DNA of 64,000 nucleotides, from assembly GCF_005080865.1 (NCBI RefSeq), contig NZ_CP034861.1:1-64000 (forward strand). The letters are read 5' to 3'. The notes under the pieces were generated by a model that saw only the letters and a list, made by a program, of their open reading frames with translations, was not told the origin of the DNA and did not search any database. Positions 25,583-62,951 of the stretch are shown here, one piece after another. The position numbers and the translations under genes were made by a program. How positions within the stretch are numbered: position 1 is the stretch's first letter; every line of letters begins with the position of its first letter. Source of the DNA: Buchnera aphidicola (Muscaphis stroyani). Lineage in GTDB: Bacteria > Pseudomonadota > Gammaproteobacteria > Enterobacterales > Enterobacteriaceae.

Positions 25583-25650
25583 TTTAGTATAATTAAAACT
25601 GAAACAGTCAAGAGTCTATATTTTATTTGATCAGATAATTATCTTTAACA

Positions 25651-25697
25651 GAGTATGAGAATAATTTTTTATTATACTTAAAACTCATACTCTTTTT
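25651..25697 (+). terminator. rho-independent terminator after rpoH
   Basis: GAGTATGAG (25651-25659) and CTCATACTC (25684-25692) are exact reverse complements, and TTTTT follows at 25693-25697. The 24-base loop can itself form a small A/T hairpin. Stem plus T run in the sense direction make this a convincing terminator. Confidence 0.75.
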
Positions 25698-26520
25698 AAG
25701 ATAAAAGATATGTCGCACAAATAAAATGTTTTAACGTTTTATGTAAACGTAACAAATTTATAAAAATTTTAAATTTAGTTAATATTTTTTTATTTTTAAA
25801 TCAATATAATACGTAAAAAATTAAAAAATTGTGTGAATAATAAAAAATTAGTGTATTTAAAAAATAAATTTTTGTATTAGATTTTATTTATTTTGTATTT
25901 AATAAAAAATATTTTGATGGCATCATACTTAAAAAATATTTTTCAATTTATTTTTTTGTAAATAATCTGTGAGAAGCTATTGGTATCAATCTTTATTTTT
26001 TAGATCTCTTTATCTTTTTGATTAATAGAATTAAAATAAGAAACGCATTTTTTAAAAAATATATCTTTTTTGAAAAATTTTTAATAATATTTGAAGAAAA
26101 TCTCTTATTTTTTCAAGTTTTTTAAATTGATAGTTTAATAGAAGTATAGTATATTTTAAATATATTTAACATTTTCTGATAACTACAAAATAATATAATT
26201 TCTTCAGATTTAGTAGATTTATCTTTTTAAATGTTTTCTAAAATATGTTATTGTATAAAATTTTTTATACTTTGAGATAATTAGATTTTATTTTTATATG
26301 CTTTTTAGATAAAAAAATTATTGAGCTAGTTGTTTTTATCATAAATGTTTTATTTTATATAATTTATTTAGAATTTAATTTTTATTTATTTTTGAATATT
26401 TATAAAAATTTAAAAATAACTTTTTAATAAGTTATTTTCAAATGTTTTTATATCTTTTGGAAGTTACATGTAAACTTTTTTATGATAAAATATACGATAT
26501 TTGTTTTCAAGGTTGTTATT
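25698..26520. other. long gene-free spacer rpoH-yigL
   Basis: About 820 bases of extremely A/T-rich sequence without an open frame of note, RNA gene or repeat I can recognise. From memory, the pea-aphid Buchnera carries glmS and glmU between rpoH and the yigL-metE region, so this may be the eroded site of those genes. No fragment of either is recognisable by eye. The right end holds a possible yigL promoter, TTGGAA (26457-26462) and TATGAT (26481-26486), 18 bp apart. Confidence 0.55.
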
Positions 26521-47457: not shown

Positions 47458-48251
47458 ATTATTAAACAATAATACAAAAATAAAAGTTCTTAAAAAATTT
47501 TACTTTTAAATAAAAAGTTTAAAGTTTAAAACTTAAATATTTTTTAATAGAAAATGTACACATTTTTTATATTACTCTTAATTTTTATTTTGCTAATATA
47601 TATTAATATTACTGAATTTTTTATTTTAATTAATTTTTTTAAGCGAGTATAAAATTTAAATTAATATCTATCATTAGACATATTTTTTTGATCAATTTAT
47701 GCAACTAATTATTTAATATATTAAAATAAAAAGTTATTAAAATAAAGTATATTAATTTAATAGATTTTATTATTTAAAATCTTTTATTTTTCGAAAAAAC
47801 TAAATGATACTAAATGAATAATTTTGTGAATCATTATATATTTAAAAAAATTATTTTTATATCATTTTTTTAAGTATTGTTACATTTTTAAAAGAATAAA
47901 AATTTTAAAATGACAAGTATTTTATCCCTCTTTTATTCGATTGTTTTCTTGATGTAATTAACAATATCTCATATATCAATATTTATTTATAAAAATTTTT
48001 TATTAAGTAGATTTATTCTGCCGAATCAACATAAATTTTTAATAAGATAATAAAAATATTATGAATAAAATTATGATTAACATCATTTTAAAAATCAATT
48101 TTTTTCCTTATAATTTTCATTTACTTTAAAACTTTGTAAACATTAAAGAAAAAATAATTTTTTTGAAAATTTTTTAATCTTTGCTTAATAATTCGAATAT
48201 TGCTGCTTAAATTTATTTATGATTTAATATAATTTTAATGGGTTATGATGT
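47458..48251. other. long gene-free spacer metF-argG
   Basis: 794 bases with no credible coding frame and no RNA gene. From memory, pea-aphid Buchnera has argE, argC and argB between metF and argG, so this looks like the remains of that block. I recognise no protein fragment. A short tandem repeat, ACTAAATGA twice, lies at 47799-47818. No convincing ArgR box is present. Confidence 0.55.
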
Positions 48252-58864: not shown

Positions 58865-59016
58865 TCTGAAAACCTCAAAAAAAATAAATTAATTAAATCG
58901 AAAATTTATAAGTTTAATATTTTAAAAAATTGTTCAAAATAATATCTGTTTTTAATTACATCTTAAAAAAAATAAAAGACTGAATTTTAGCGTAAAAAGA
59001 TTTTTAGATAAAAAAT

Positions 59017-59056
59017 TTTTATATCTAAATATTAATTTTTATATTTAGATATAAAA
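59017..59056 (-). terminator. 16-bp perfect inverted repeat between hldE and ribB
   Basis: 59017-59032 and 59041-59056 are exact reverse complements with an eight-base loop. On the minus strand the stem, after the hldE stop, is followed by a T tract (complement of the A run at 59011-59015), giving a terminator shape. All but two pairs are A-T. The rest of the 279-base spacer shows no gene and no FMN riboswitch. Confidence 0.6.
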
Positions 59057-59143
59057 CTATTTATCATAAATTTTTTTTAAAAGAAATTAATATTATAAAA
59101 TTATTAAAGTATATTAATTTACATCATGTAAAAAATAAATATT

Positions 59144-60106
59144 TTAAATTTTTTTTCGAGATTGATAATATAAGGCTTCGTTTAGTTCATTTATAGAAAG
59201 CGTTTTAGTCCCTATTTTTTGAACAACTATAGAAGCTCCTACATTTGCATAAAAACACGACTCCTCTAAAGAAAGTCCTTGAGCTAAAGAAGCTGCTATT
59301 ACTGAAATCACAGTGTCTCCTGCGCCAGTAACGTCATGTGCTATATTTGATGTAGCTGGAAAATGTATCGGTTTTTTGTTTGGTTGAAATAAATTCATTC
59401 CGTGTTCTGATCGAGTGACTAATAATGCAGATAAATTCAACTGAAGCATTAACTCTGTTCCTTTTTTTAACAGTTGCTTTTCTTCTTTACACGTTCCTAC
59501 TATTTTTTCAAATTCGGATAAATTAGGGGTAATTAAACTCGCTCCAGAGTATTTTGTAAAATCCATTCCTTTAGGATCTATGAGTATAGGAACTGACATT
59601 TTCTTTGCCAATGAGATAATTTTTTTAATATCAACTAAAGTTCCTTTGTCATAATCAGAAAGTATTAAAACTTTAAAAAATGATAATGAGCGTAATATTT
59701 TTTCATATAATATGTTATTGCATTGAAAAAAGTACTTTTCTTGAAAATCTAAACGCATTAGTGGTTTTTTTTTTGATAAAACTCTAATTTTTGTAATAGT
59801 TTTATTATTTTTAACAATAATTAAGTCAGAAAAAATATTTGAATGATTTAATAGTTTTTTTAACATTAATCCTTCATAATCCATTCCAATACATCCAATA
59901 ATTTTAGAAAAAGCACCTATATCCGCTATATTTTTAGCAACATTTGCAGCTCCTCCGGGTTGTTCTTTTGTTTTTTTAATAGGCATAATAGGTTCAGATT
60001 TTTTAGATAAAATATGATAATTTTTGCCATACCAATAGCAATCTAAAATAACGTCACCAACAACAAGAACTGATGCGTTTTTAAAATTAATTATTTTTTT
60101 TTTCAT
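59144..60106 (-). CDS. hldE: HldE reduced to its heptose-7-phosphate kinase domain
   Basis: E. coli HldE (477 residues) fuses a ribokinase-type heptose-7-phosphate kinase with an adenylyltransferase, both for the LPS inner core. Here only 320 residues remain, matching the kinase: [12 protein letters not shown], the [14 protein letters not shown] substrate motif, and the catalytic DVTGAGDTV with its aspartate. The adenylyltransferase motif (NGVFDILHAGH in E. coli) is absent from the gene and, by eye, from the 279 bases downstream. Without it ADP-heptose could not be made by this protein alone. Confidence 0.9.
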
Positions 60107-60300: not shown

Positions 60301-61548
60301 ATGAAAATATATCTAGTAGGAGGAGCTGTACGAGATTCTTTGCTTAATTTACCATTTCAAGATAAAGACTGGGTAGTAGTTGGAGGGACAAAAAAAATGT
60401 TATTAGACAAAAATTTTCAACAAGTAGGAAAAGATTTTCCAGTTTTTTTGCATCCAAAAACGCACGAAGAATACGCACTAGCAAGAACGGACAGAAAGAA
60501 TGGAGTAGGTTATTTTGGTTTTAATACGATTTCTAACAAAGATATCACCTTAGAAGAAGATTTAATTAGAAGAGATTTAACAATTAACGCAATTGCTCAA
60601 GACGAAAATGGTAATTATATTGATCCTTTTCAAGGAATAAAAGATATTAAATATCGTTTATTACGACATGTTTCAGAGTCTTTTATAGAGGATCCGCTTC
60701 GTATTTTAAGAACAGCGAGATTTGCTGCTTCTTTAGCTCATTTAGGTTTTTGTGTTGCTAAAGAAACAATAGAGCTGATGAAAATCATGGTAAAAAAAAA
60801 GGAATTATCATATTTAACTTCAAATAGAATATGGAATGAAACAAAGAAAGCTTTAAAAACTTTTCATCCTCATGTTTATTTTCAAATTTTGAATGACTGT
60901 AAAGCTTTAAAGTTTATATTTCCAGAAATACATTATTTTTGTAAAAAAAATTTTTTTTTGAATTTCAACAGTTTACATCGAAAGAATAGAAAAAACCCTA
61001 TAATGGGATTATCTAAAATTTCTTCATTAAATAAAGACGTAAGTATACGTTTTTCTTATTTATGTCAATTTGTGTCTAGCTCTTATATTGACAAAAATTT
61101 TTTTAATTCCATGACAATATTTCATGATTCTCACTCAGCTTATATTGTAAAAAAATTATGTCAACGTCTTAATGTACCTTCTAACATAAGAGATATAGCA
61201 GTTTTGAGCGCTGGATTTTATAATTTTTTAAGTACTATACATTATCAATCTTCTAAAAATATTGTTATTTTATTATTGCGAATCGATGCTTGGAGAAAAC
61301 CAGATCGTGTAAATGTTTTATCGTTTTTAAGTAATTTTAATTCAAAAAGTTTATTTCAATCTCATAAGTTGTATTTAAATTCTCATTCTTTTTTAAAAAT
61401 AGCTTTTTCCATTATTCAAAATATTTCTATTCAATCAATTCTAAATAAAGGATTTAAAGGATATGAAATCAAAAAAGAACTTAATCGTTTAAGAGTTAAA
61501 AAATTAGATTTATGGCGTTCTAAATACACTGTAAAATATAATTTTTAA
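60301..61548 (+). CDS. cca: CCA-adding tRNA nucleotidyltransferase, HD motif lost
   Basis: Adds CCA to tRNA 3' ends. The product is 415 residues (E. coli 412). The nucleotidyltransferase domain is intact: YLVGGAVRDSLL, QDKDWVVVGG with the catalytic acids, and EDLIRRDLTINAIAQD. In E. coli the C-terminal HD domain (LCHDLGKG) gives phosphatase and phosphodiesterase activity. Here those residues read LCQFVSSS (Q256, F257), so that activity is probably gone. CCA addition is essential because four of five tRNA genes in the window lack it. Confidence 0.95.
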   Translation: MKIYLVGGAVRDSLLNLPFQDKDWVVVGGTKKMLLDKNFQQVGKDFPVFLHPKTHEEYALARTDRKNGVGYFGFNTISNKDITLEEDLIRRDLTINAIAQDENGNYIDPFQGIKDIKYRLLRHVSESFIEDPLRILRTARFAASLAHLGFCVAKETIELMKIMVKKKELSYLTSNRIWNETKKALKTFHPHVYFQILNDCKALKFIFPEIHYFCKKNFFLNFNSLHRKNRKNPIMGLSKISSLNKDVSIRFSYLCQFVSSSYIDKNFFNSMTIFHDSHSAYIVKKLCQRLNVPSNIRDIAVLSAGFYNFLSTIHYQSSKNIVILLLRIDAWRKPDRVNVLSFLSNFNSKSLFQSHKLYLNSHSFLKIAFSIIQNISIQSILNKGFKGYEIKKELNRLRVKKLDLWRSKYTVKYNF

Positions 61549-61600: not shown

Positions 61601-62376
61601 CTAATTTAACAATTTAAAATAAATTAATCCAGATATAAGAAAACGATAAAATCCAAACCATATTAGTGAAATTTTCTCAGTTACATTTAATATTTTATTT
61701 ATAAAAAAAATAGAAATAAGCAACGACATAAAAAAGCCAATAAACAAAGTTGAAAAATTAAGTATTTCTAAATTTTTAGTGTTATTAAAAATTTCAAAAA
61801 AAGACGCTCCCATTAATAACGGAACGGAACTGATAAATGAAAATTCTATTGCAACTTTGCGTGTAAATCCTAATAGCACTCCAGTAGCAATAGTCACTCC
61901 AGATCTTGAGCAACCAGGGTATAAAGATAAAGCTTGAACACATCCAATAATTATTGATTGAATAAAATTTATATCATATATTTTGAATATTTTATGTTTT
62001 TTTGGTTTAAATATTTCAGCAATAATTAAAAATAAACCGCCTAATATTAATGAGTACATAATGTTGACAGGATGATAAAAAGACTTGATTTTTCTGTAAA
62101 AAAAAAACCTAAAAGTATTGTAGGAAAAATAGTAATTAAAACATATCCATGTTGGATATATGTCATTTTTTTAAATTTTTTATAAAAAAATAGAAATATT
62201 CCTATAGAAGATCCGAGTTGAACAAAAATTTCTATTATATTCGTATATTTATTTTCGATATTTAACCAATTATTAATGATAATCATATGTGCTGTAGATG
62301 AAATTGGAAAAAATTCTATGATTCCTCCCACTAATCCAATAAATGCAATATAAATACTACTAATTGGATAATACAT
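61601..62376 (-). pseudogene. uppP: undecaprenyl-diphosphatase UppP (BacA), frameshifted
   Basis: UppP recycles the lipid carrier for cell-wall synthesis. The N-terminal frame (62376 to 62047) ends in a stop; the C-terminal part continues in another frame to 61601. Joining them at the run of ten A (62098-62107) by one extra base restores LGFFFYRKIKSFYHPVNIMY-like sequence, aligned with E. coli. The R-containing motif PGCSRSGVT is intact, but the first catalytic Glu (E17 in E. coli) is Gly17; E21 remains. It is either a pseudogene or a gene rescued by slippage, with reduced or no activity. Confidence 0.85.
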
Positions 62377-62447: not shown

Positions 62448-62951
62448 TTAATTGTACAAAGACATAATAATTGTTTTTCCTTCAGTAATTATGCCCGATG
62501 ATTTTTTAATTTTCTTAAAATTTTCTATATTAGAAATTATTACTGGAGTTAATATAGATGGAGCATTTTTTTTTATAAAATTCAAATCAAAGCTAATAAT
62601 ATCTTCTCCTATTTTAACTTTTTGTTTATTTTTTGCTATTTTTTTAAATCCTTTTCCTTTTAGTTTGACTGTATCAATTCCAAAGTGTACGAATAATTCC
62701 ACTTCATCTTCTGAAATAATTGAAAAAGCATGCATGCTATCTAATATTTTATTAATAGTTCCATTAACTGGTGAAACTATTTTATTTCCTGACGGTTGAA
62801 TAGCTATTCCATCACCTACAATTTTTTGAGAAAAAACAACATCTGGTACATCTTCTAAATTTACTATACAACCTGATATAGGGGCAAATATTTCTATCTT
62901 TTTAGAAAAATTAGATGTTTTTTCCTTAAAAAAATTAGAAAAGATGCTCAT
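62448..62951 (-). CDS. crr: PTS glucose-specific EIIA component
   Basis: Cytoplasmic phosphocarrier that takes phosphate from HPr and passes it to EIIB domains. The product is 167 residues (E. coli 169). The active-site histidines are His74 (SMHAFSI) and the phosphorylated His89 (VHFGIDTV). [21 protein letters not shown] is typical of the family. It follows ptsI by 26 bases as in the E. coli ptsHI-crr operon. Confidence 0.97.

Follow-up and report, generated by a model that had tools for sequence, protein, structure and literature searches.

The uppP gene of this Buchnera aphidicola genome (from Muscaphis stroyani), as assembled, is divided between two reading frames, and the switch from one to the other falls within a run of ten T. 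It is one of at least seven genes of the genome that are frame-broken at or beside long homopolymers, and one of the others, hisS, encodes a protein that the cell cannot do without. In kind the lesion is ordinary, one further homopolymeric frameshift of the sort already known in Buchnera. Our first choice among the explanations, to which we give about an even chance, is that the frameshift is real and is tolerated for now via transcriptional slippage.

The uppP Locus and Its Two Frames

The window referred to throughout is the whole stretch of 64,000 nucleotides that was analyzed (NZ_CP034861.1, positions 1 to 64,000). The run inside uppP occupies window positions 62098-62107 and reads ten A on the plus strand and ten T on the coding (minus) strand. 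The N-terminal piece of the gene (62047-62376, minus strand) is an ORF of 109 aa up to an out-of-frame stop and contains the first active-site loop, in which Gly takes the place of E. coli Glu17. The C-terminal piece (61601-62059, minus strand) is an ORF of 152 aa that carries the second active-site loop, PGCSRSGVT, and its frame is open from 62170. Both pieces score above the gathering score of the PF02673 BacA profile (E 3.3e-15 for the N piece and 8.5e-34 for the C piece). The initial annotation had claimed that the two halves align with E. coli UppP, and indeed both match chain 5oon_A in order: N piece residues 8-75 align with 17-84 and C piece residues 1-148 with 132-279, so that the pieces are collinear with the E. 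coli protein. An additional stretch, N piece 78-100 against 103-126, is not significant alone.

The N frame ends in PTILLGFFF..., and the C frame resumes with FFFYRKIKSFYHPVNI ahead of MYSL; across the same segment the UppP of relatives reads, for example, PTIFLGLIFYNKIKLLFHPINVMY. Similarity to the relatives extends through the N piece as far as LGFFF and through the C piece starting at FFFYRKIKSF. Because the relatives read continuously through a segment that the two frames match from either side, we place the frame change inside the ten-base run, exactly where the shift had been put initially. The accompanying statement that there is no other lesion stands only in part. Neither piece has an internal stop, and the offset in the A/T run is the sole interruption of the frame, as is characteristic of Buchnera homopolymeric frameshift genes; the N piece, however, has its catalytic Glu17 replaced. 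The neighbors cca (60301-61548, plus strand) and crr (62448-62951, minus strand) are intact and were used as rate controls.

Catalytic Site and Sequence Constraint

For the E. coli enzyme, Ser27 has been proposed as nucleophile; the base is Glu21, which has Glu17 as its carboxylate partner (PMC5861054). Alignment with E. coli indicates that the enzyme of this genome keeps Glu21 and Ser27 in the N piece and Arg174 in the C piece. The Gly at position 17 departs from all 33 intact relatives, of which 30 carry Glu and three carry Gln there. In a comparison chosen post hoc, Glu17 is lost in two of three broken copies (Gly here, Ser in the more distant genome G084) and in 0 of 33 intact ones (p 0.005), and the broken copy of G018 keeps Glu at this position. 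The N piece also has a short in-frame loop deletion, which is common to an intact relative (L034). Ala at position 29 was considered as damage and dismissed, as the intact copy L008 has Ala too.

Judged from the residues, the Glu17 to Gly replacement weakens the case for uppP function without settling the question, and it suggests that the gene may be weakened, perhaps at an early stage of decay. Published mutants bear on this point. An E21A variant retained 1.4% activity, being nearly inactive and failing to complement (PMC4641660); elsewhere E21A was as active as wild type, and the double E17A/E21A variant is cited there as inactive (PMC10941186). The fully active E21A implies that one glutamate may suffice. 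In the portions of the literature covered, we found no activity measurement for UppP with a single change at Glu17.

The replacement is a reason to ask whether uppP is a recent pseudogene, a gene whose function was lost through the frameshift or already through the earlier replacement of Glu17, and whose remaining sequence has had too little time to decay. We consider this unlikely, and the evolutionary rates of the two pieces speak on both sides. For the comparison of rates the tree was kept fixed; its 31 genomes comprise 29 with intact uppP together with G018 and the present genome, whose placement has 88% bootstrap support. Of the tree length, the terminal branch of the present genome makes up 12.1% for the UppP N piece and 8.7% for the C piece, compared with 7.5% for Cca and 7.2% for Crr. 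Where the 29 intact genomes are invariant, it has changes in 2/17 columns of the N piece, 0/30 of the C piece, 1/129 of Cca, and 1/62 of Crr; the corresponding changes in the G018 pieces are 2/13 and 0/32, and in the intact L031, left out in turn, 2/19 in the N part. The C piece is thus constrained like its neighbors Cca and Crr, which argues against a pseudogene. The N piece is faster and has lost Glu17, which argues for one, though a comparable excess in N-piece branch length is seen in L014 and L031, whose uppP is intact. In simulated neutral decay under an assumed AT-rich model (200 trials), 8% of the trials kept both pieces open when the divergence was 0.05 substitutions per site, a share that fell to 2% when it was 0.1, so that the open pieces are compatible with a young lesion. 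Taken together, the branch rates, the invariant columns, and the neutral model point to ordinary constraint on uppP until recently, or still now.

uppP and the Lipid-Carrier Pathway in Relatives

The relatives were drawn from 36 genomes of the genus, the present one counted in. The C half of uppP is present in 35/36. The gene lies in one frame in 33/36, is split in the present genome and in G018, and is missing from G024, where cca and crr are separated instead by 821 bases (L039:2537-3357) with no ORF of 60 aa. The break in G018 (L033:1044-1840) is independent of ours and lies elsewhere, in a stretch with nine-T and seven-A runs. In the wider family, PF02673 was detected in 135 of 198 genomes, and the copy in the reduced genome G084 (L040) is again in different frames through an independent break. 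The split copies in G018 and G084, the latter with Ser17, and the absence from G024 show uppP broken or lost elsewhere and to that extent favor the pseudogene.

The initial annotation had proposed that the run length be compared in sister strains, and on this comparison the offset is not kept across lineages. With the rows L013 and L025, misread by the search pattern, left out, the corresponding segment of 24 codons was readable in 31 relatives, and its longest T run measures 3-7 in 31/31; only this genome has the run of ten. All relatives with a full-length Cca are at 61.3-68.1% identity to the Cca of this genome, with no close strain among them. G024 was considered as a sister genome on a partial Cca match of 78% over 212 residues and rejected, its best full-protein segment reaching only 62.7%. 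In the text portions of the Buchnera literature covered, no frameshifted uppP was seen; the gene may be listed in the supplementary tables of PMC3164680.

The rest of the pathway favors rescue of uppP. A search for PAP2 phosphatases that succeeded in E. coli and ten further controls detected them in 0/36 genus genomes. UppS and MraY are each found in 35/36, G024 alone being without them, and in the present genome both are matched in open frames. In a search of eight genomes for the Mur-ligase domain, the present genome gave five matches in open frames of 410-502 aa with no stops, and G024 gave none; the five are presumably MurC, D, E, F, or FolC, as assigned by cluster order. ftsW is likewise found in 35/36, G024 lacking it, and is in two pieces only in the present genome. 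With UppS, MraY, and the Mur ligases intact and no PAP2, this genome keeps the lipid-carrier pathway while its only recognizable carrier-lipid phosphatase is offset. A dead uppP would therefore leave the carrier without a known phosphatase, which counts against the pseudogene, as does G024, which is fully without uppP and has also lost UppS, MraY, and the Mur ligases. The locus contributes a stage of peptidoglycan loss in which damage has reached the phosphatase but not UppS, MraY, or the Mur ligases.

Other Genes Broken at Long Runs

Altogether 87 runs of ten or more were examined in the genome, 13 in the window and 74 in 38 further stretches (126,538 bases) around the runs listed. At least seven genes are frame-broken at or beside such runs, namely, uppP, ftsW, nadK, hisS, nadD, rsmE, and cvpA, and in the six besides uppP the flanking pieces match the same family. 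hisS (L063:1134-2437; G000 C1 303433-304736) is in two frames at a poly(A) tract, A10. At or beside runs of 10-12, two frames are likewise found in nadK (L054:2708-3648), nadD (L074:1204-1859), ftsW (L056:433-1640, ten T), rsmE (L071:1628-2367), and cvpA (L052:2554-3059). Shorter runs also lie near the crossing in two of these, an A8 a few bases past the first run in rsmE and an A8 before the T10 in cvpA. All seven offsets have the same sense, the downstream frame being at -1, a shift that insertions made during transcription can compensate.

Within ORFs of at least 120 aa, an offset is found at 6/72 runs of ten or more (uppP counted; cvpA, in shorter ORFs, is extra), against no confirmed break at 103 runs of nine and 223 runs of eight (p 3e-5), a count that leaves aside signatures at L049:472, L057:1857/1905, L065:3297, and L082:262/307; reassigning rsmE to its A8 would give 5/72 against 1/326. 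Several candidates were rejected. The first ORF of rnfB covers positions 4-162 of a 190-position profile and the second matches nothing, and the signatures at runs of eight to nine (FliM/N, FliO/P, GshB and RuvX) lie between neighboring genes. T-type and A-type tracts were also compared (3/9 against 4/65, p 0.035), but the result was set aside, because A on the plus strand is favored among the first 100 places listed.

hisS is present in 36/36 genus genomes and so cannot be dispensable. It forms one main piece in 34/36 and two pieces in the present genome (A10) and in G007 (A13, L087), at the same tract and in the same sense, so that here the offset is kept across lineages in two genomes. Of the 35 genomes with nadK, the present one alone has it in two pieces; as nadK and ftsW are both absent from G024, neither is beyond loss in the genus. 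Among the cell-wall genes, the murF copies of G002, G020, G009, and G018 are split at a common tract, all at -1, and murE is split in G009 (-1) and G018 (+1). Separately, single stops were seen within the one-piece hisS match in G026 (one ORF, 408 aa) and within the one-piece ftsW matches in G009, G028, and G031.

With at least seven run-broken genes, hisS among them, gene death alone cannot account for every case, and some require either tolerance through slippage or systematic miscalling. The initial annotation had left pseudogene, slippage rescue, and sequencing error unranked; all three are retained, and it is this set of genes that changes their weights. A run-broken uppP is more likely slippage-tolerated or an assembly error than simply dead. 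Such an error, in assembling or in calling bases at long homopolymers, would mean that uppP is in one frame in the cell; we hold it to be improbable, to the same degree as the pseudogene. Systematic undercalling would give what is seen, confirmed breaks at or beside runs of ten or more and all seven in one sense, and the breaks include a gene that cannot be missing. Against it, the 12 other runs of ten or more in the window are in open frames (11 well within, one at the rsmD start), and no gene was seen broken at the 29 runs of nine in the window, of which 25 lie within ORFs of at least 100 aa. The hisS split recurs at the same tract in G007, and four other genomes have murF split at a common tract. 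The load of broken genes also resembles published counts of homopolymeric frameshifts in Buchnera, which stand at 8, 10, 11, 13, 12, and 18 for six genomes from Aphidinae; two further genomes have 1 and 3 (PMC3164680).

Relation to Known Frameshifts and Transcriptional Slippage

uppP resembles the published Buchnera cases (murF, murE, mraY; PMC3164680) in its one-frame offset in a long A/T run, in the conservation of most of the gene, and in its setting, with several such genes per genome and cell-wall genes repeatedly affected; repeated loss of murF through homopolymeric frameshifts is described there. It differs from them in that its coding-strand tract is T and its catalytic Glu17 is also replaced, and uppP is unnamed in the main text portions of that paper that were available. 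In Blochmannia vafer, eight homopolymer-frameshift genes are reported, dnaX and dnaG among them (PMC3017870). Corrected transcripts have been measured for some Buchnera and Blochmannia frameshift genes (Tamas 2008, Wernegreen 2010, as cited in PMC3017870, PMC3164680, and PMC5009743), and uppP is like these in its similar run length, essential pathway, and intact neighbors. Unlike these, it is known from DNA alone and has a run not common to its relatives, and the rescues described in the accessible parts of those sources concern poly(A). As a member of the UppP/BacA family (PF02673; E. coli 5oon, 6cb2), it has both pieces matching and Glu21, Ser27, and Arg174 kept; unlike 5oon and 6cb2, it is in two DNA frames with Gly at 17.

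Slippage tolerance of uppP, the reading we prefer, would work as follows. RNA polymerase would slip on the long tract and produce transcripts of mixed run length, of which a minority would encode one continuous UppP. This protein would keep some carrier-lipid phosphatase activity, converting C55-PP to C55-P, and hisS and the remaining run-broken genes of the genome would be tolerated in the same way. This reading is favored by the seven or more run-broken genes, their common -1 sense together with the prevalence of insertions at Buchnera runs (151/157 insertions, 16 deletions; PMC5574713), the hisS split in the separate assembly G007, the murF split in four relatives, the constraint on the C piece, the intact pathway, and the finding of no PAP2. 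Doubt comes mainly from Glu17 to Gly and further from the faster N piece, from the T tract as opposed to the poly(A) of the rescues covered, from the absence of nadK and ftsW in G024, and from Buchnera LSR1. In the available sections of the transcriptome-wide LSR1 study, insertions are concentrated in runs, and no restored frame is reported (PMC5574713).

A more specific version is more doubtful still than either rival. In it, slippage on long T (mRNA U) tracts, in addition to A tracts, would sustain function in this Buchnera, and uppP and ftsW, both with ten T, would be in a leaky stage of the loss of the peptidoglycan lipid cycle, with the only recognizable carrier-lipid phosphatase made from minority transcripts and with an altered active site.

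Whether Buchnera genes that are broken in DNA are corrected in RNA is still debated, some corrected transcripts having been measured whereas the transcriptome-wide study saw no restored frame (PMC5574713). Because hisS cannot be dispensable, its offset together with those of the other genes at long runs makes this debate testable with one RNA sample, and it is the joint set of run-broken genes with hisS that gives such an experiment its informative value.

Other Observations in the Window

Three further intervals of the window deserve mention. Between metF and argG (47458-48251) there is no ORF longer than 32 aa, at a place where we take argECB to be located in other Buchnera. Loss of argECB has been published for the Buchnera of Uroleucon ambrosiae (PMC3164680). 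At 58865-60106, hldE is only 320 aa long, with ∼280 bases of noncoding sequence behind it. The E. coli HldE protein is, we assume, longer than this, and the C-terminal domain of hldE may be lost in this genome. The ∼860 bases after rpoH (25583-26441), which contain no ORF longer than 35 aa, are possibly an eroded gene.
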